A DNA stretch of 64,000 nt from Candidatus Bathyarchaeota archaeon (GTDB lineage Archaea > Thermoproteota > Bathyarchaeia > TCS64): assembly GCA_020346605.1 (NCBI GenBank), contig CP070784.1:1051947-1115946 (forward strand), written 5' to 3'. The translations under genes were made by a program, and so were the position numbers. The notes beneath the pieces were generated by a model. The model made no database searches. It was not told the origin of the DNA and saw only the letters and a list, made by a program, of their open reading frames with translations. Positions 47,922 through 58,352 of this stretch are shown here, piece by piece. How positions within the stretch are numbered: position 1 is the first letter of the stretch; each line of letters begins with the position of its first letter.

Positions 47922-47991
47922 GCTCTAAGTGTCGATTTAGCTTCGTAAAACTGTTATGAACTCCTGATATCTAGTTGGAGTAAGTTTTTGG

Positions 47992-48094
47992 CGCCGGGAA
48001 AGGGATTTGAACCCTTGCGTCCGTACGGACACTAGCTTTCCAGGCCTGAGCCACCCGAAGGCGTTAGCTCCCTTCCAGGCTAGGAGACCCCGGC
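47992..48094 (-). tRNA. tRNA-Ser(GGA) with a 19-nt intron
   Basis: The minus-strand acceptor strand GCCGGGG pairs with TCCCGGC. D-arm, long variable arm (GTCC-GTAC-GGAC) and T-arm (AAGGG-TTCAAAT-CCCTT) follow. Discriminator G73 is typical of serine, and CCA is encoded at 47991-47989. Removing the intron gives the anticodon arm CTAGC-CTGGAAA-GCTAG, a perfect 5-bp stem with anticodon GGA. Mature length without CCA is 84 nt. Confidence 0.9.
48046..48064 (-). other. tRNA-Ser intron (position 29/30)
   Basis: The intron ACGCCTTCGGGTGGCTCAG lies between nucleotides 29 and 30. It forms the canonical bulge-helix-bulge: outer helix AGG/CCT, bulge AGG, central 4-bp helix GAGC/GCTC, bulge TAA, inner helix CGCC/GGTG closed by a TTCG tetraloop. 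The archaeal splicing endonuclease cuts after the second base of each 3-nt bulge (TA^A and AG^G). These cuts give exactly the exons needed. Confidence 0.88.
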
Positions 48095-48242: not shown

Positions 48243-50114
48243 GTGATAAACATTAAAAAAGCTTCGACACTGTTCCTATCTCTGCTTCTGGTGATGAGCC
48301 TCTTCACCCTCCCGGCGTACGCCGAGGAGAGGGAAGAGCTCTCCTTCGAGATGTGGACCCTCGACTGGGACACCATCTCCGTGGACGCGGGCGACGTGAT
48401 CGAGCAGATGCTCAGGGACATCGGCATCAGGATGAAGGCGATCCCCCTGAGCGACGAGGTGCTCTACGACAATCTCGACCTCGAGCACACCTACGAGGTT
48501 TACGAGATGAGCCACGGTTACGCCCCCTACCCGGCGCATCTGTACAGCAGGTTCCACTCCGACGAGATCCTCGACTACGGGGGTAACTACCCGGGGTACA
48601 GCAACTCCCAGTTCGACTCCCTCATCGACCAGTCCAACACCGAGCTGGACTTCGACGACAGGAAGGAGCTGCTGTGGCAGGCCCAGGAGCTTCTGGCCGA
48701 GGACCTACCCTATATTCCGCTGTTTACGTCCGACGACGTCCACGCTATCAGGAAGGAGTGGAAGGGCTACCACTGCATGCCCGGAGGCATCTTCAACTGG
48801 TTCAACAGGCTGACAACCATCGACCTCTACCACGAGGACCAGGAGTACGGCGCCGACTTCGTAATGGCCTACCCCTCGTTCATCAGGGACTACAACCCCA
48901 TAATGGCGGGTGACGGCCGTTCGCTGCTGGTGATGTCGATGGTCTTCGACCCCCTCGTCTCCTACGACGACGACTTGAACATCATACCCTGGCTCGCCAC
49001 CGACTGGGATGTTTCTGAGGATGGGCTCACCCTGACCTTCAACATAGTTGACGACGCTAAGTGGCACGACGGCGAGGACCTGACTGCCGAGGACGTCAAG
49101 TTCACCATCGACTTCTACAAGGAGCAGGAGGCCCCGTACGACCTAGCCCTCATAAACCGCATCGACTCCGTCGAGACCGACGGCGACTACACTGTGATAC
49201 TCCACATGACGGAGCCCTACGCCTGGGTCCTGTACGACCTGGAGGACGTCCCCATAATCCCCAAGCACGTCTGGGAGGACAAAACCTGGGACTGGGTCGT
49301 CCACCCCGACGCGATGCCAGTGGGATCCGGGCCCTTCATGTGGGACTCCTACGTCGACGGCGAGTGGATCAAGCTCGTGGCGAACCCCGACTACTGGATG
49401 GAGGGGAAGCCCCACCTGGGCTCCTTCACCGTCAGGGTGATCTCGGAGTCCTCGGCGCGCTTCCTAGCGATAAAGACCGGTGAGGTCCACTCGGAAAGAT
49501 ACGAGCTGGACGTGGGCTTCATAGACGCCGCCGAGAGGGAGGCCAACTTGGCGCCCCTCGAGGACACCTGGTGCGTCGGTATGTGGGACTACGTCATCAG
49601 CTTCAACCAGAGGACCGATCCCGCCCTGCAGGACCCCGTCGTGAAGAAGGCCATCGCCCACGCCATCGACAGGCAGAGGTTGGTCGACATCGCCAGGCTT
49701 GGATACGGGACAGCCACGGCGACCTTCATACCGCCCGCCTTCTTCGGACCCGCCTACGACAACCCCGACGCGACCCTCTACGAGTTCAACGTCTTCCTCG
49801 CCAACAAGATGCTGGACGCCGCCGGATACCTAGACACTGACGCCGACGGCATAAGGGAGATGCCCGTGGAGGTCGTCGAGGAGGAGGAAGAGGAGGAGCC
49901 CGCGGTCGAGCTCGAGAAGATAGAGGAGCTGGAGCAGTCCGTCGAGACACTCACCGCAAGTGTGACAGATGCGCTCGGCCTTGTGACTTCGCTGGAGGAC
50001 GATCTTGGGTCTCTGAGGACCCAGCTGAACAGCTCCCTCAACATGTCCTACGGCCTCGGAGCCCTTGCCCTATTGGTGGCCATCGTCGCAGTCTACTACG
50101 CGATGCGGAAGTAG
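48243..50114 (+). CDS. Peptide ABC transporter substrate-binding protein, circularly permuted and membrane-anchored
   Basis: The 623-aa protein has a signal peptide (residues 1-27). Residues 31-195 match the C-terminal half of SBP family 5 proteins: IEQMLRDIGIRMKAIPL, GGNYPGYSNSQFDSLIDQ, RKELLWQAQELLAEDLPYIP. Residues 203-540 match their N-terminal half: VFDPLVSYDDDLNIIPWLAT, DGEDLTAEDVKF, AIAHAIDRQRLV, ANKMLDAAGYLDTDADGIRE. In ordinary members the order is reversed, and DGIRE leads directly into the segment found here at residue 31. A Glu-rich linker, coiled coil (556-598) and membrane helix (602-620) follow. The GTG start is fixed by a Shine-Dalgarno sequence. The gene heads an Opp/Dpp operon. 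Confidence 0.85.
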   Translation: MINIKKASTLFLSLLLVMSLFTLPAYAEEREELSFEMWTLDWDTISVDAGDVIEQMLRDIGIRMKAIPLSDEVLYDNLDLEHTYEVYEMSHGYAPYPAHLYSRFHSDEILDYGGNYPGYSNSQFDSLIDQSNTELDFDDRKELLWQAQELLAEDLPYIPLFTSDDVHAIRKEWKGYHCMPGGIFNWFNRLTTIDLYHEDQEYGADFVMAYPSFIRDYNPIMAGDGRSLLVMSMVFDPLVSYDDDLNIIPWLATDWDVSEDGLTLTFNIVDDAKWHDGEDLTAEDVKFTIDFYKEQEAPYDLALINRIDSVETDGDYTVILHMTEPYAWVLYDLEDVPIIPKHVWEDKTWDWVVHPDAMPVGSGPFMWDSYVDGEWIKLVANPDYWMEGKPHLGSFTVRVISESSARFLAIKTGEVHSERYELDVGFIDAAEREANLAPLEDTWCVGMWDYVISFNQRTDPALQDPVVKKAIAHAIDRQRLVDIARLGYGTATATFIPPAFFGPAYDNPDATLYEFNVFLANKMLDAAGYLDTDADGIREMPVEVVEEEEEEEPAVELEKIEELEQSVETLTASVTDALGLVTSLEDDLGSLRTQLNSSLNMSYGLGALALLVAIVAVYYAMRK

Positions 50115-50195: not shown

Positions 50196-51182
50196 ATGGG
50201 CTTCAAGGAGTACGTGGGCAGGAGGACCCTCCAGGGGATCGTCACTGTGGCGCTCGCCGTGACGATGAACTTCCTCCTCTTCAGGATCATGCCGGGCGAC
50301 CCCACACGCTCCATCGTGGGGGACCCCCGGATAGAGACCGCGACGAGGCTCGCCCTTATCGCCAAGTTCGGCCTCGACAGGCCCCTCTTCGAGCAGTTCT
50401 TCCTCTACCTGTACAACCTGGCCCAGGGAGAGCTCGGGGTTTCCTTCGTGCTGAAGGGCAGGCCTGTGGTCGGGATCATCCTCGGGAGGAAACTGGTCAA
50501 CACCGTGGTCCTCATGGGATCGTCGATGTCCCTCGCCTTCGTTCTCGGCATCGTGGCTGGTGTCGTGGCGGCTTGGAGGAGGGGGTCGAAGATGGATATC
50601 TCCGCGGTCATTGTCTCCTTGGCAACGTACTCGATGCCCGTCTTCTGGTTCGGCATGCTCATGCTCCTATACCTCAGCTACTACCTGAACATCTTCCCCA
50701 TCGCGGGCACCATCACCCCAGGGCTAGTCCACGCCAATTTCTTCGAGTACATCAAGGACTACATCCGCCATCTGGTGACCCCCATGGTCACCCTCGCCGT
50801 CTCCTTCTTCGGCGGTTACTTCCTCTTCATGAGGGACACGATCCTTGACGTCTTCACCGAGGACTACATGCTCACTGCTAGGGCGAAGGGCCTCTCGGAC
50901 CGCAAGATCCTGTTCAAGCACGCTATGAGGAACGCACTGCTGCCCATGGTCTCGCTGATGGGGGTGCACGTCACCTTCCTGATCAGCGGGGCCACGTTGA
51001 CCGAGACAGTCTTCTCCTGGGACGGCCTTGGCAGGCTGATCTACGACTCCGTCAGGAACAACGACTACCCCGTGCTCCAAGGCCTGTTCCTGATCATGGC
51101 CGTGCTGGTGGTGACAGCCAGCATCATCGCAGACATCACGAATGCGTACCTCGACCCGAGGATAAGGCAAGCGGTGGAATGA
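50196..51182 (+). CDS. Peptide ABC transporter permease (DppB/OppB family)
   Basis: The 328-aa membrane protein has six helices. The family start is FLLFRIMPGDPTRSIVGDP, and the EAA loop that contacts the ATPase is near residue 225: TARAKGLSDRKILFKHAMRN. It pairs with the permease at 51179. The last bases (ATGA) overlap the next start, so the two are coupled. Confidence 0.92.
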   Translation: MGFKEYVGRRTLQGIVTVALAVTMNFLLFRIMPGDPTRSIVGDPRIETATRLALIAKFGLDRPLFEQFFLYLYNLAQGELGVSFVLKGRPVVGIILGRKLVNTVVLMGSSMSLAFVLGIVAGVVAAWRRGSKMDISAVIVSLATYSMPVFWFGMLMLLYLSYYLNIFPIAGTITPGLVHANFFEYIKDYIRHLVTPMVTLAVSFFGGYFLFMRDTILDVFTEDYMLTARAKGLSDRKILFKHAMRNALLPMVSLMGVHVTFLISGATLTETVFSWDGLGRLIYDSVRNNDYPVLQGLFLIMAVLVVTASIIADITNAYLDPRIRQAVE

Positions 51183-52093
51183 GTATGGCCGTAGGGGAGA
51201 AGCTGACGACGGGGTCCCTGATGAGGGAGCGGCTGTCCACACACCTGAGGAGGTTCGATAGCTTCTGGGAGCTCTACACTGCTAGCAGGATCGGCATGGT
51301 CGGCCTCGCAGTGATACTCGTCGTCATAATAGTGGCCATCCTGGCGCCGTACATCGCGCCCTACGATCCTAGGGCATTAGTCGGGGATCCCTTCCTACAC
51401 CCCAGCGTCGAGTACCTTCTGGGGACCGACCAGATCGGGAGGGACATCTTCAGCCAGCTGATCTGGGGGAGCAGGGTCTCCCTCATGGTGGGGCTGCTCG
51501 CCAGCGCCACGGGGGTCGCGATCGGCACATTCATTGGGCTGACATCGGGCTACTTCAGGGGGCCCCCGGACTCGATCCTCATGAGGATCACCGACCTCTT
51601 CATCACTCTGCCGAACCTTCCGCTGATGCTCATCCTGGCCGCTCTGATCGGTAGGAGTATGTGGAACATCATCCTCGTCATCGGCGTCACTGGCTGGACT
51701 GGCACGGCCAAGATGGTCCGCTCCCAGACCCTGTCCATCAAGGAGAGGCCATACGTAGAGGCCGCCAGGTCAGTTGGAGCCAGGGACCGCCACATCTTGA
51801 TCCGCCATATCATGCCTAACGTCCTGCCCCTGGTCTTCGCGAACGCGATCGTGGGTATCGTCGACGCGATCCTCGCTGAGTCGGGGCTCAGCTTCCTCGG
51901 CCTGGGGGATCCGACGAAGCCCAGCTGGGGCCTAATACTCCGCTACGCCAACGAAGCCGGCGCTCTCGCCACGGGCAGATGGTGGTTCATCATCCCACCG
52001 GGTGTCTGTATCATGCTCGTGGCCATTGGGTTCGCCTTCTCCAGCTACAGCTTGGACCAGATACTGAACCCTAGACTGAGGAAGAGGAGGTAG
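51179..52093 (+). CDS. Peptide ABC transporter permease (DppC/OppC family)
   Basis: The 304-aa six-helix permease has an N-terminal cytosolic segment, GTDQIGRDIFSQLIWGSRVS near residue 80 and the EAA loop VEAARSVGARDRHILIRHIM near 198. The family role is the second half of the membrane channel for oligopeptides. It begins in the stop codon of the preceding permease and ends 4 bp before the ATPase gene. Confidence 0.92.
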   Translation: MSMAVGEKLTTGSLMRERLSTHLRRFDSFWELYTASRIGMVGLAVILVVIIVAILAPYIAPYDPRALVGDPFLHPSVEYLLGTDQIGRDIFSQLIWGSRVSLMVGLLASATGVAIGTFIGLTSGYFRGPPDSILMRITDLFITLPNLPLMLILAALIGRSMWNIILVIGVTGWTGTAKMVRSQTLSIKERPYVEAARSVGARDRHILIRHIMPNVLPLVFANAIVGIVDAILAESGLSFLGLGDPTKPSWGLILRYANEAGALATGRWWFIIPPGVCIMLVAIGFAFSSYSLDQILNPRLRKRR

Positions 52094-52097
52094 ACAG

Positions 52098-53084
52098 GTG
52101 CCCATCCTGGAAGTCAGAGGTCTTGTGACCCACTACCTCACAATGCAGGGACCCGTCGAGGCGGTGAGCGGCGTCAGCTTCACTGTGGACGAGGGGCAGA
52201 CCCTGGGGCTGGCGGGAGAGTCGGGGTGCGGCAAGACGACCGCCGCCCTCTCGATCATGGGGCTGCTTCCCTCCAATGGCAGGATCATCGGAGGGGAGAT
52301 AATACTCGACGGTGAGGACCTGCTCAAGAAAGACGAGAGCGAGCTGAGGGAGACCCGGTGGAGGAAGGTGTCCATCGTCTTCCAAGGGGCGATGAACGCC
52401 CTCAACCCCGTCATCAACGTAGGCGAGCAGATAGCGGAGGCCATCCTCGAGAAGGAAGAGGTCACCCGTGACGAGGCATGGGAAAGGGTGAGGGAGCTCT
52501 TCGACCTGGTGGAGCTGGAGCCCGGTAGGGTGAAGGAGTTCCCACACGAGTTCAGCGGCGGTATGAGGCAGCGGGTGATGATCGCCATGGCCCTCGCCTG
52601 CAACCCCAAGCTGGTGATCGCCGACGAGCCGATAACGGCGCTCGACGTCATCGTCCAGAACCAGATAATGGAGCTGATGAAGAGCCTGCAGAGCAGGATG
52701 AATCTCTCCCAGATGCTGATAACCCACGACCTCTCGGTGATAGCGGAGACGTGCGACAGGGTGGGGATCATGTACGCGGGCAAGCTCATGGAGTACGCCG
52801 ACGTTGGGCCCATCTTCAAGCGCCCACTCCACCCCTACACCAGCCTGCTCATCGGCGCATACCCGAGCATTGTCGGAGAGAAGAGGCCCCTAAAATTCAT
52901 CCCAGGGGCCCCGCCGAACCTCATCGACCCGCCGAAGGGGTGCAGGTTCCATCCCAGATGCCCGTACGCCCAGGAGATATGCGGCAGGGAGGAGCCCAGC
53001 TTCCTTGAGGAGGAGCCAGGGCACCACGCTGCATGCCACTTCGTCGACGAACTCAGGGGCACTCTCAGTATCGGTGATGGCTAA
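52098..53084 (+). CDS. Peptide ABC transporter ATPase (DppD/OppD family)
   Basis: The 328-aa ATPase has Walker A GESGCGKTTAALSIMG, the signature FSGGMRQRVMIAMAL, Walker B LVIADEPITALD and the family-specific C-terminal extension with a Cys cluster (GCRFHPRCPYAQEICG). That cluster is found in OppD/DppD proteins and can hold an Fe-S cluster. The start is a GTG at 52098. The stop overlaps the next start (TAATG). Confidence 0.92.
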   Translation: MPILEVRGLVTHYLTMQGPVEAVSGVSFTVDEGQTLGLAGESGCGKTTAALSIMGLLPSNGRIIGGEIILDGEDLLKKDESELRETRWRKVSIVFQGAMNALNPVINVGEQIAEAILEKEEVTRDEAWERVRELFDLVELEPGRVKEFPHEFSGGMRQRVMIAMALACNPKLVIADEPITALDVIVQNQIMELMKSLQSRMNLSQMLITHDLSVIAETCDRVGIMYAGKLMEYADVGPIFKRPLHPYTSLLIGAYPSIVGEKRPLKFIPGAPPNLIDPPKGCRFHPRCPYAQEICGREEPSFLEEEPGHHAACHFVDELRGTLSIGDG

Positions 53085-54052
53085 TGTCAGAGGAGCTTAT
53101 AGTCAGGGACCTGAAAAAGTGGTTCCCGAGGAGAAGTAGCTTCTTCTCCAAGACCGAGTACGTCAGGGCGGTCGACGGCGTGAGCTTCGAGATAGAGAAG
53201 GGCGATGTGCTCTGCCTCGCCGGTGAGAGCGGATGCGGAAAGACGACGACTGGCAGGGTGGTCCTCAGGCTCATCGAGCCGACCGAGGGCCACGTCTTCC
53301 TCCACGGCGTCGACATCTTCTCCCTCGGCAAGAACGAGCTGAGGAGGATGCGCCCAGAAATGCAGATGATCTTCCAGGACCCGTACGAGTCGCTGGACCC
53401 CCGGATGGATGTCTTCAGCATCCTCGCCGAGCCCTTGGAGGTCAACAGGGCTGTCACTGGGTACGCGAACATCAGGGACAGGGTCCACAAGGTCCTGGAG
53501 GACGTCAGGCTGGTCCCCATCGAGGAGTTCAATAGGAGGTTCCCCCACGAGCTCAGCGGAGGCCAGAGGCAGAGGGTCGCTATAGCTAGGGCGCTGATGC
53601 TCAACCCGAGGTTCATGGTAGCGGACGAGCCCGTCTCCATGCTCGACGCCTCGATCAGGACCGAGATACTGAACCTCCTCACCGACCTTCGCGAGAAGTA
53701 CAACCTGACTTTCCTCTACATCACCCACGACATCGCCCAAGCCCGGTACGTGGGCGACCAGCTCATGATCATGTACCTGGGTAAGGTCGTGGAGAGGGGG
53801 CCCATGGAGGACGTTATCCAAGAACCGATCCACCCCTACACGAAGGCCCTCATCAGCAACGTCCCGGTACCGGACCCCGCAGCAGAGAGGGAGAGGATCT
53901 TAATAGAAGGGGAAACCCCGACACCGATAGACCTTCCAGAGGGATGCAGGTTCTGCCCGCGCTGCACCGAGGGCGAGGCCCTGTGTGAAGCCGAGGAACC
54001 CGAGCTCCGAAAGGTGGGAGAGGATCGATGGGTCGCCTGCTGCCTCGCTTAG
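53084..54052 (+). CDS. Peptide ABC transporter ATPase (DppF/OppF family)
   Basis: The 322-aa second ATPase has Walker A GESGCGKTTTGRVVLR, the signature LSGGQRQRVAIARAL, Walker B FMVADEPVSMLD and a C-terminal Cys motif (GCRFCPRCTEGEALC). Together with OppD it forms the heterodimeric motor that powers peptide uptake. It is the last gene of the operon. Confidence 0.92.
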   Translation: MSEELIVRDLKKWFPRRSSFFSKTEYVRAVDGVSFEIEKGDVLCLAGESGCGKTTTGRVVLRLIEPTEGHVFLHGVDIFSLGKNELRRMRPEMQMIFQDPYESLDPRMDVFSILAEPLEVNRAVTGYANIRDRVHKVLEDVRLVPIEEFNRRFPHELSGGQRQRVAIARALMLNPRFMVADEPVSMLDASIRTEILNLLTDLREKYNLTFLYITHDIAQARYVGDQLMIMYLGKVVERGPMEDVIQEPIHPYTKALISNVPVPDPAAERERILIEGETPTPIDLPEGCRFCPRCTEGEALCEAEEPELRKVGEDRWVACCLA

Positions 54053-54163: not shown

Positions 54164-54499
54164 ATGCACATGGACTGGATTCAACGTAGCGAGAAGACAC
54201 TGGAGCAGATACAGAAACTCATGGAGAGCCCCGACCAGGACAGGCTGGAGCTCGTGCGCGTCATGAGGGTGGCCTTCGGAGCTCTCGGCAACAGCCTCGG
54301 CGGCTGGATGCAGTGGGTCAACAGCCCAGAGATCATGTCCAACTTCACGCAGGAGGAGCTTCAGGAGATGGCCACCAAGATCACAGACATGGTGACCGCG
54401 TTTGTCTCCTTCGACATCGAGATGACCAACAGGGGAATGCAGAAAGGACTGGCGAAGCAGAGGGCAGCAAACCAGCAGCAGGTCCGCTTCGTCATCTAG
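54164..54499 (+). CDS. DUF2153 family protein
   Basis: The 111-aa all-helical protein resembles DUF2153, a family so far known from archaea: DWIQRSEKTLEQIQKLM, RVMRVAFGALGNSLGGWMQW, TQEELQEMATKITDMVTAF. The function is unknown. GGTG precedes the ATG and CGTTTAAGAGG lies about 40 nt upstream. Its stop overlaps the end of the gene from the other strand by 4 bp. Confidence 0.65.
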   Translation: MHMDWIQRSEKTLEQIQKLMESPDQDRLELVRVMRVAFGALGNSLGGWMQWVNSPEIMSNFTQEELQEMATKITDMVTAFVSFDIEMTNRGMQKGLAKQRAANQQQVRFVI

Positions 54500-55705: not shown

Positions 55706-55896
55706 GCCCGGAAATTGCATTCACGCCCTTTTAATATATGGGCTGCTGTGATCGAGCCCCTGCCATGGCACGAACGGTCTCAGTAGAACCGGTGTGTGGC
55801 CCATTTGACCCTACGCGATGGACAAGTTTAGAACCGGATCGATTGAAGAAGATACAGTGTTCTTGAGGGTCTTTTTTGGATTTTAATGGAAAAAGG

Positions 55897-55906
55897 ATTT
55901 ATAAAT
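55897..55906 (+). promoter_or_regulatory. TATA box for the HtrA gene
   Basis: ATTTATAAAT, within the palindrome GGATTTATAAATCC (55895-55908), is centred about 25 nt before the ATG at 55927. It supports that ATG over the TTG at 55876. Confidence 0.6.
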
Positions 55907-55926
55907 CCAAAAAAATAATAAAAAAG

Positions 55927-57285
55927 ATGTTAGAAGACGATTCTAAGATAAAAAAGTCGAATTTAGGGTTCTATCTTCCCTTCATCATAATTTTGATGGC
56001 TGGCTTCTTCTTATTATCAGTCTTCAGGCCCCCTGGTGCGAGCCCCGATCAATTTTCTCTGAAAATAGAAGGCCTAAGTGTGGAGCTTGAGGAGCTAGAG
56101 GCCAGGCTCGGCGTTCTAGAGGCGAACGTCGCCAACATGTCTTCAACGATCCGTGGACTGAATTTCTCCTCGAGATACAGCGAACTGGAGTCGTTGATTT
56201 TGGCCAACCACGATCGGTCTCTCTGGGAGATAGCCACCCTACAGGAAGACTTTGATGATCTTCGAGAGGGACTGTTGAAGATCTCTCATGACTGGAGCCA
56301 GTTGGAGAACGACGATGACGGCGCAGGAGAGTTCTCCATCGCGAGCCTGTTCGAGTCGGTGGTATCCATACAGGTGGCTTCCTTCAGCGATGGCGAGGCG
56401 TACGTCTCCAAGGGCTCCGGCTTCATATACAGCGAAAACGGCAACATAGTGACGAGCTACCACGTCGTTGAGAACGAGGCCTGGGGCATCGAGGTGGTCT
56501 TCAACGATGGCTCCATATCAGAAGGGAGCTTGGTCGCCTACGATGACGACTACGATATTGCGCTGTTGAAGGTGAAACCGCACAAAGCTCTAACACCGGT
56601 TTCTTTTGGGAACTCCTCCAAGGTCACCGTTGGCGAGCCCGTTGCCGTAGTTGGGAATCCCTTTGGGTACGGTAGCACATTGACCACTGGCATCGTCAGT
56701 CAGACCCAGCGGACGCTATCGATGGATGAGAAGTACCTCATCCCCGGGATAATCCAGTTCGATGCAGCAGCCAACTACGGCAACTCTGGAGGCCTACTGT
56801 TCAACTGGGAAGGGCAGGTGATAGGTATGGTAGCGGCTGACGTGAATCCAATGTACGGTGAGGGCGTCAACTTCGCAGTTCCCTCAAACATTCTGAGATA
56901 CGTGTTGCCTGTCGTGCTGGAAGATGGCCGGTTCAGGCACCCCTACATAGGCATCGTCATGAAGCCGGTGTCTTTGAAGGTAATGGAGGCGATGTATCTG
57001 AATTCCACCGATGGTGTTTTGATTGTCGAAGTTTTTGATGATAGCCCCGCCAAGGCGGCAGGATTGAGGGGTGGCTCCGAGTCCATCCGGTACATCCTTG
57101 AGTCAACGAAGATAGGCGGCGACGTTATTCTGAGGATCGACGATGAGCCGATCTACGACATGGAAGACCTTGGTTCTTTCATCGATGAGCACAGGAGTCC
57201 CGGAGACCAGGTAAGCATCCAGATCCTGAGGAATGGAAGGAAGAAGACCGTCTCCCTCGTGCTGGGGGAACGTCCCAGCTCATAG
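55927..57285 (+). CDS. HtrA/DegP-type serine protease with membrane anchor
   Basis: The 452-aa protein has an N-terminal membrane helix (FIIILMAGFFLLSVF), a coiled coil of about 60 residues, then a trypsin-like domain. The triad is His in TSYHVVENE (near 178), Asp in YDDDYDIALLKV (near 208) and Ser in NYGNSGGLLFN (near 286). A C-terminal PDZ domain (KAAGLRGGSESIRYILESTK) follows. It would act outside the cell in protein quality control. The first 50 codons are AT-rich compared with the rest. The start follows the TATA box at leaderless distance. Confidence 0.88.
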   Translation: MLEDDSKIKKSNLGFYLPFIIILMAGFFLLSVFRPPGASPDQFSLKIEGLSVELEELEARLGVLEANVANMSSTIRGLNFSSRYSELESLILANHDRSLWEIATLQEDFDDLREGLLKISHDWSQLENDDDGAGEFSIASLFESVVSIQVASFSDGEAYVSKGSGFIYSENGNIVTSYHVVENEAWGIEVVFNDGSISEGSLVAYDDDYDIALLKVKPHKALTPVSFGNSSKVTVGEPVAVVGNPFGYGSTLTTGIVSQTQRTLSMDEKYLIPGIIQFDAAANYGNSGGLLFNWEGQVIGMVAADVNPMYGEGVNFAVPSNILRYVLPVVLEDGRFRHPYIGIVMKPVSLKVMEAMYLNSTDGVLIVEVFDDSPAKAAGLRGGSESIRYILESTKIGGDVILRIDDEPIYDMEDLGSFIDEHRSPGDQVSIQILRNGRKKTVSLVLGERPSS

Positions 57286-57338
57286 AGGCTGGAAGCGCAG
57301 ATCCTTTTTACTACCTGTCCCCTTGACCATGTAGAAAA

Positions 57339-58352
57339 TTGTCGTCGAATGCCCTAGACCTTCACAGGAGATCCATCGTGGTGGACACCCACTGCGACAC
57401 GCTGAAGTGCCTAACCCAAGAGTTCACACGTACCAAGGGCTCCATGTGGAAGGACAGGTCCTCTGTGGGCATGGGGGTGCGCTCCGAGCTCGGCCACGTA
57501 GACATCCCCAGGCTCAGGGACGGGGGCGTCGACTGCCAGGTCTTCGCCGTCTCCTCCGCTAGGGACCGGACTCCGCCCCACGCCCTCAGGACAGCCCTCG
57601 ACATGATCGACGTCTTCCACGGCGAGTGCGAACGGAACAGCGACGCCATCCGCCCCGTGACCTGCCACGACGACATCGTGGAGGCCGTCGGTGAGGGGAA
57701 GGTGGCGGCGATGCTCTCCATCGAGGGAGCCGACGTCATCGAGGGGAGGCTCAGCATGCTCAGGGTCTTCCATCGCCTCGGCGTCAGGATGGTGGGCCTG
57801 GTCCACAGCCTGAGGAACCTGCTCGCCGATGGCGTCTCGGACGCCAGGACGGGCGGCGGCCTCTCCGAGCTGGGGGTGAAGGTCGTCGAGGAGCTGGATC
57901 GGCTCGGGGTCATCGTCGACGTTTCCCACATCAACGACGCGGGCTTCTGGGATGTCAATGACATCTCGAGGAACCCGGTTATAGCTTCTCACTCCAACAG
58001 CAGGGCGATCTGCGGCCACCCCAGGAACATGACCGACGATATGATCGTCGCCCTCGCGGATGGCGGAGGCGTGATGGGCATGAACTTCGCCCCCTCCTTC
58101 GTCCACCCCACGGCTCCGACGGTCGAGACGCTGGTGAATCACGTCGACCACATCGTGGACCTGGTGGATTCCGATCACGTCGGCCTCGGTTCGGACTTCG
58201 ACGGGATACGCTCCACGCCGGTTGGCCTGGAGGACGTCACCAAAATGCCGGGGATAACCGAGGAGTTGCTCCGCAGGGGCTACGGGGAGGACGATGTGAA
58301 GAAGATCTTGGGCGGCAACCACCTCAGGCTCATAAAACGCGTCGTTGGCTGA
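57339..58352 (+). CDS. Membrane dipeptidase (M19 family)
   Basis: The 337-aa zinc enzyme has VVDTHCDTL (HxD) at residue 14, the bridging Glu in MLSIEGADVIEG, VDVSHINDAGFWDV (His), ASHSNSRAICGHPRNM (His) and LGSDFDG (Asp). The family hydrolyses dipeptides, including those with a C-terminal D-residue. No signal peptide is visible, so the archaeal enzyme is probably cytosolic. The apparent start is a TTG at 57339, about 30 nt after CTTTTTACTA. Confidence 0.88.
   Translation: MSSNALDLHRRSIVVDTHCDTLKCLTQEFTRTKGSMWKDRSSVGMGVRSELGHVDIPRLRDGGVDCQVFAVSSARDRTPPHALRTALDMIDVFHGECERNSDAIRPVTCHDDIVEAVGEGKVAAMLSIEGADVIEGRLSMLRVFHRLGVRMVGLVHSLRNLLADGVSDARTGGGLSELGVKVVEELDRLGVIVDVSHINDAGFWDVNDISRNPVIASHSNSRAICGHPRNMTDDMIVALADGGGVMGMNFAPSFVHPTAPTVETLVNHVDHIVDLVDSDHVGLGSDFDGIRSTPVGLEDVTKMPGITEELLRRGYGEDDVKKILGGNHLRLIKRVVG

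Follow-up and report, generated by a model that had tools for sequence, protein, structure and literature searches.

A putative circularly permuted family 5 substrate-binding protein at the head of an Opp/Dpp-type operon in a Bathyarchaeota genome

Segment order of the 623-residue protein

The gene at positions 48243 to 50114 of the window, i.e., the whole 64,000-nucleotide stretch analyzed here, encodes a 623-residue protein that, judged from its sequence, is very probably a working, circularly permuted family 5 substrate-binding protein (SBP) of an Opp/Dpp-type ABC importer. The permuted architecture appears to be widespread and to exist with a second cut point. If the canonical chain is divided into N-terminal (N1), middle (N2), and C-terminal (C) thirds, the canonical order is N1-N2-C; the protein of the window has the order C-N1-N2, termed P1, and the second form, termed P2, has the order N2-C-N1. 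The features of the gene and its operon are as follows.

48243 to 50114, + strand: predicted circularly permuted SBP family 5 protein, 623 residues, order C-N1-N2 (P1); open reading frame, phmmer, and canonical-only profiles
48243 to 48323, + strand: signal peptide-like N terminus, residues 1 to 27; hydropathy, with a cleavage-like site between AYA and EE read from the sequence
48333 to 48827, + strand: segment C, the canonical C-terminal third, here N-terminal, residues 31 to 195; 1xoc_A 358 to 506; canonical-only profile 75.0 bits (residues 51 to 171)
48828 to 48848, + strand: new junction from canonical C terminus to canonical N terminus, residues 196 to 202; gap between the matched segments
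48849 to 49406, + strand: segment N1, residues 203 to 388; phmmer; canonical-only profile 149.7 bits (residues 207 to 385)
49407 to 49862, + strand: segment N2, residues 389 to 540, up to DGIRE (P1 cut point); phmmer; canonical-only profile 66.6 bits (residues 398 to 529); cut in other P1 proteins
49863 to 50036, + strand: acidic linker and coiled-coil-like helix, residues 541 to 598; sequence, and a long helix in a low-confidence model
50037 to 50102, + strand: predicted C-terminal transmembrane segment, about residues 599 to 620; hydropathy
50196 to 51182, + strand: OppB/DppB-type permease; PF00528 and PF19300; best NCBIfam match Opp2B, below its cut-off
51179 to 52093, + strand: OppC/DppC-type permease; PF00528 and PF12911 (OppC_N)
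52098 to 53084, + strand: OppD/DppD-type ATPase; PF00005 and PF08352 (oligo_HPY extension)
53084 to 54052, + strand: OppF/DppF-type ATPase; PF00005 and PF08352 (oligo_HPY extension)

The open reading frame starts with GTG, is preceded by a GGAGG motif, and is uninterrupted. SBP_bac_5 (PF00496) is the sole Pfam match of the protein, scoring 248.1 bits for the whole protein against a curated cut-off of 32.4, and no other protein of the genome matched this family; all parts of the family profile are present, but not in the canonical N-to-C order. When PDB sequences were searched with phmmer, residues 21 to 354 of AppA (1xoc_A) aligned with residues 203 to 539 and residues 358 to 506 with residues 31 to 180, so that two blocks adjacent in AppA occur in swapped order. 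By itself, the N-terminal piece matched SBP family 5 chains in their C-terminal parts, the best match being 2d5w_A (500 to 563; E value, 4.4e-9). Since the first segment profiles included the 623-residue protein as a seed, they were rebuilt from canonical-order proteins only; these had themselves been selected with the seeded profiles. Despite this selection, the rebuilt profiles score far higher than expected by chance and are consistent with the phmmer alignment: among 200 shuffled sequences the top score was 5.4 bits, and no match was obtained with the reversed sequence.

The circular permutation proposed in the initial annotation, with the C-terminal segment of SBP family 5 ahead of the N-terminal half, is thus borne out by the AppA alignment and the canonical-only profiles. 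The extent assigned to the displaced segment, residues 31 to 195, also stood; the motifs given as its ends, IEQMLRDIGIRM and LPYIPLF, in fact lie inside it, at residues 53 to 64 and 155 to 161. Separate alignment to PF00496, one of the checks proposed at the time, gave profile positions 2 to 288 for residues 247 to 543 and positions 289 to 354 for the N-terminal piece, the latter with 14.4 bits, which is below the cut-off when taken alone.

AlphaFold was used to model the protein from alignments in which 12 or 22 fragments of canonical proteins accompanied the query. The models were weak (13 rows, pLDDT of 56.6 and pTM of 0.41; 23 rows, pLDDT of 65.4 and pTM of 0.54). The first alignment of canonical fragments had placed C fragments under the N half, and the alignments used were selected from many random subsets (60 in one round and 520 in another) by the agreement of MAFFT with the expected permuted placement; because this selection presupposes the permutation, neither the alignments nor the models count as evidence for it. 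Foldseek aligned about 340 to 380 columns of the model with a pTM of 0.54 to SBP family 5 structures, with TM scores of about 0.40 to 0.48, and the structural matches listed were family 5-type proteins. A pattern scan of viral contigs for additional alignment rows yielded few family 5 genes.

A close relative in another genus

The proposed search of related archaeal genomes for the same order was successful. Genome G011, from another genus of the same family, encodes a full-length relative with 74% identity, the order C-N1-N2, and the same operon. The existence of this protein excludes an assembly chimera. More generally, an assembly or frame artefact has a negligible probability: the contamination estimate for the genome is 6%, but the frame is unbroken, the relative comes from an independent genome, and the order C-N1-N2 recurs in many further genomes.

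The same comparison bears on the idea that C-terminal and N-terminal fragments of two different broken SBPs were fused without sharing one fold. Packing of the two halves against each other cannot be demonstrated from sequence, and the structure models are weak; nevertheless, such a fusion is very unlikely. The three segments are about equally conserved between the two proteins (77, 75, and 80% identity), and their nearest relatives overlap (L174 and P2 proteins), as would not be expected had fragments of two different SBPs been fused by chance. In addition, the halves end and begin within a few residues of each other at one point of the canonical protein, and the permuted order recurs widely next to intact transporter genes. 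A permuted SBP hence remains the preferred reading. The route initially suggested, tandem duplication followed by loss of the outer halves, is unproven, and no fused tandem copy was found.

Survey of permuted forms

The C, N1, and N2 profiles were applied to collected loci, and removal of duplicates and partial cases left 136 distinct proteins. Their segment orders were N1-N2-C in 55, C-N1-N2 in 51, and N2-C-N1 in 30 cases, counts that are not frequencies because the loci were partly picked for their permuted appearance. Among proteins with all three segments no noncyclic order occurred; the orders observed are the rotations of one ring.

A junction profile (A1) covers the C-N1 junction common to P1 and P2, and matches that begin at or before model position 50 and reach at least position 300 were taken as junction-spanning. 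A count by hand gave at least 61 positive genomes among 398 from the phylum and 12 among 101 from Bacillota, and all 18 Bacillota loci examined proved to be P1 or P2. Thus, the view that SBP family 5 proteins keep the N half ahead of the C half, on which the initial annotation relied, does not hold in general: permutants are common in the phylum and also occur in Bacillota. At a threshold of 1e-50, 150 Pseudomonadota genomes gave four A1 matches, none of them beginning before model position 136, and no permuted form; there were no A1 matches in 96 Myxococcota genomes at 1e-50 or in 57 Aenigmatarchaeota genomes at 1e-40, strict cut-offs that could miss divergent permuted members.

Dpp/Opp-like genes lie within 1.5 kb of most permuted genes (43 of 50 for P1 and 22 of 26 for P2). 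Gene order and strand relative to the cassette vary among lineages, many archaeal P1 genes being divergent from it. Some loci of the survey were unusual in length. Very long open reading frames at L108 (9925 to 16117, + strand; 2,064 residues) and L107 (− strand; 1,435 residues) carry a canonical-order family 5 protein at their start, and those at L109 and L110 (884 and 957 residues) match N2-C or N2 only and perhaps encode highly divergent P2 proteins.

Cut points and their origins

Cut points are conserved within P1 and within P2 proteins. The P1 chain ends shortly past the helix A..LL..AGY and starts just ahead of the strand that follows the cut in canonical order. In the 623-residue protein the end lies past DTDADGIRE, and the stop of the N-terminal half at DGIRE (residue 540), noted initially, coincides with the cut seen in other P1 proteins. 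P2 chains start with a GP(R/W)VDE-like motif, and their fold part stops past the NP.YW motif. With respect to the structures of OppA and DppA, cutting at P1 would presumably open domain III, and cutting at P2, domain I.

The P1 proteins do not form one clade, which makes a repeated origin of the same cut probable. Monophyly of P1 was rejected (p-AU of 3e-106) in a quick tree of 136 rows with long branches present. In a careful tree of 75 rows, from which 22 long or odd rows and 39 near-duplicates had been removed after inspection of the first tree, supported branches forced at least four changes for P1, and P2 formed one clade (100/98). An unlikely but by no means trivial alternative is a single ancient P1 permutation followed by recombination or re-permutation to the canonical order, in which case no cut would have been repeated. 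It would fit the identical cut in all P1 proteins; the trees are unrooted, and their change counts cannot separate gain from loss; and a tree that unites the window pair and the main archaeal P1 clade was not rejected (P = 0.08), nor was one that unites this pair and P2 (P = 0.43). Besides the strong rejection of a single P1 clade, the position of L114/L115 stands against it: these proteins are nested within a clade of canonical proteins, and a tree uniting them with the main archaeal P1 clade was rejected (P = 1.6e-34). All three of the latter P values come from the quick tree with a simpler model and from groups named after the tree had been inspected. Recurrence of the P1 cut thus remains the probable reading.

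Membrane anchoring and proposed function

Hydropathy predicts a C-terminal transmembrane segment in 33 of 37 archaeal P1, 24 of 26 archaeal P2, and 12 of 51 archaeal canonical proteins and in none of 18 Bacillota permutants, counts that include related, nonindependent rows and some proteins cut by contig ends. In place of this segment, several Bacillota P1 proteins have lipobox-like motifs. In archaea, C-terminal anchoring is associated with permutation, which is neither necessary nor sufficient for an anchor. The initial annotation had regarded the anchor as a consequence of a C terminus freed by the permutation; permutation is not supported as a cause, because unpermuted relatives also carry predicted C-terminal anchors and the Bacillota permutants lack the C-terminal segment.

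The tail at 49863 to 50102, with its predicted coiled coil and transmembrane segment, resembles tails encoded in related genomes (query residues 546 to 622 and 560 to 622) and has only weak matches in its own genome. In view of the matches in related genomes, this tail may be an anchoring module that can be used repeatedly.

According to the proposed working of the protein, the canonical N and C termini would be joined via the short linker, with the new termini in the loop past DGIRE. The predicted signal peptide would export the protein, the permuted chain would fold into the usual two lobes, and the predicted C-terminal coiled coil and transmembrane helix would tether it outside the membrane. 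A ligand, possibly a peptide or a similar compound, would then be passed to the OppBCDF transporter encoded downstream; among the listed structures, relatives with nickel complexes, sugars, and opines as ligands are found as well. More speculatively, and in our estimation improbably, the P1 loop might have been cut repeatedly and the P2 loop once because moved termini shift the membrane tether across the lobes and so alter docking to the permease, with C-terminal transmembrane anchors in archaea and N-terminal lipid anchors in some Bacillota.

Comparison with known binding proteins

The protein shares its sequence family, three segments, and permease and ATPase partner types with AppA (1xoc), DppA (1dpp), and OppA, and differs from them in the permuted order and the predicted C-terminal coiled coil and transmembrane anchor. 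No permuted PDB chain was found among the best 60 of 117 sequences matching the junction profile, since each best stretch covers the canonical N-terminal side only. One ABC binding protein described as circularly permuted in nature is TpMglB-2 (Tp0684) of Treponema, a "type Ic" glucose-binding protein (PMC4990184); its authors considered such proteins to be probably mostly tethered and raised adaptation to anchoring as a possibility (PMC4990184). TpMglB-2 is a type I/cluster B sugar binder, whereas the 623-residue protein belongs to family 5, whose permutants have two cuts, one apparently recurrent. With SBP_bac_5 as the sole Pfam match and family 5-type structural matches, the protein does not fit the permuted type I/cluster B sugar-binding fold of type Ic members. 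Archaeal secreted proteins combining class I signal peptides with C-terminal transmembrane helices have been reviewed (PMC2910488); the anchoring plan is shared, and permutation is not mentioned in the part of that review consulted.

In open-licence papers, TpMglB-2, from another class, was the sole natural SBP precedent, and no permuted family 5 protein or structure was encountered. As far as we could find, permutation of family 5 at two cut points, phylum-wide and in Bacillota, is apparently undescribed. Natural permutation of ABC binding proteins, on record for a Treponema type I sugar binder, would hereby extend in two forms to one of the best-studied families, where it is common. Annotation with profiles displays the permuted proteins as partial matches, and so the permutation stays hidden. 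They amount to a natural experiment on which family 5 loops accept new termini and on whether the position of the tether affects import, and they offer ready-made permutants for the design of biosensors.

Operon and genomic neighborhood

OppB, OppC, OppD, and OppF genes all adjoin the SBP gene downstream, and this complete set supports the initial assignment of the gene to the head of a peptide ABC operon. No match to archaeal small-subunit rRNA was obtained in the 2.3-Mb single-contig genome, although the same search was positive in control genomes, so that it is gene content, such as DUF2153, and not rRNA that supports an archaeal identity. Neither ARAGORN nor Rfam gave a match in the window. 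By eye, a tRNA-Ser(GGA)-like gene was recognized at 47990 to 48094 (− strand), with about 19 extra bases before the anticodon loop that are possibly an archaeal tRNA intron. The genes beside the operon, at 54164 to 54499 and 55876 to 58352, encode a DUF2153 protein of archaeal type, a trypsin/PDZ protein resembling HtrA, and a membrane dipeptidase of family M19.
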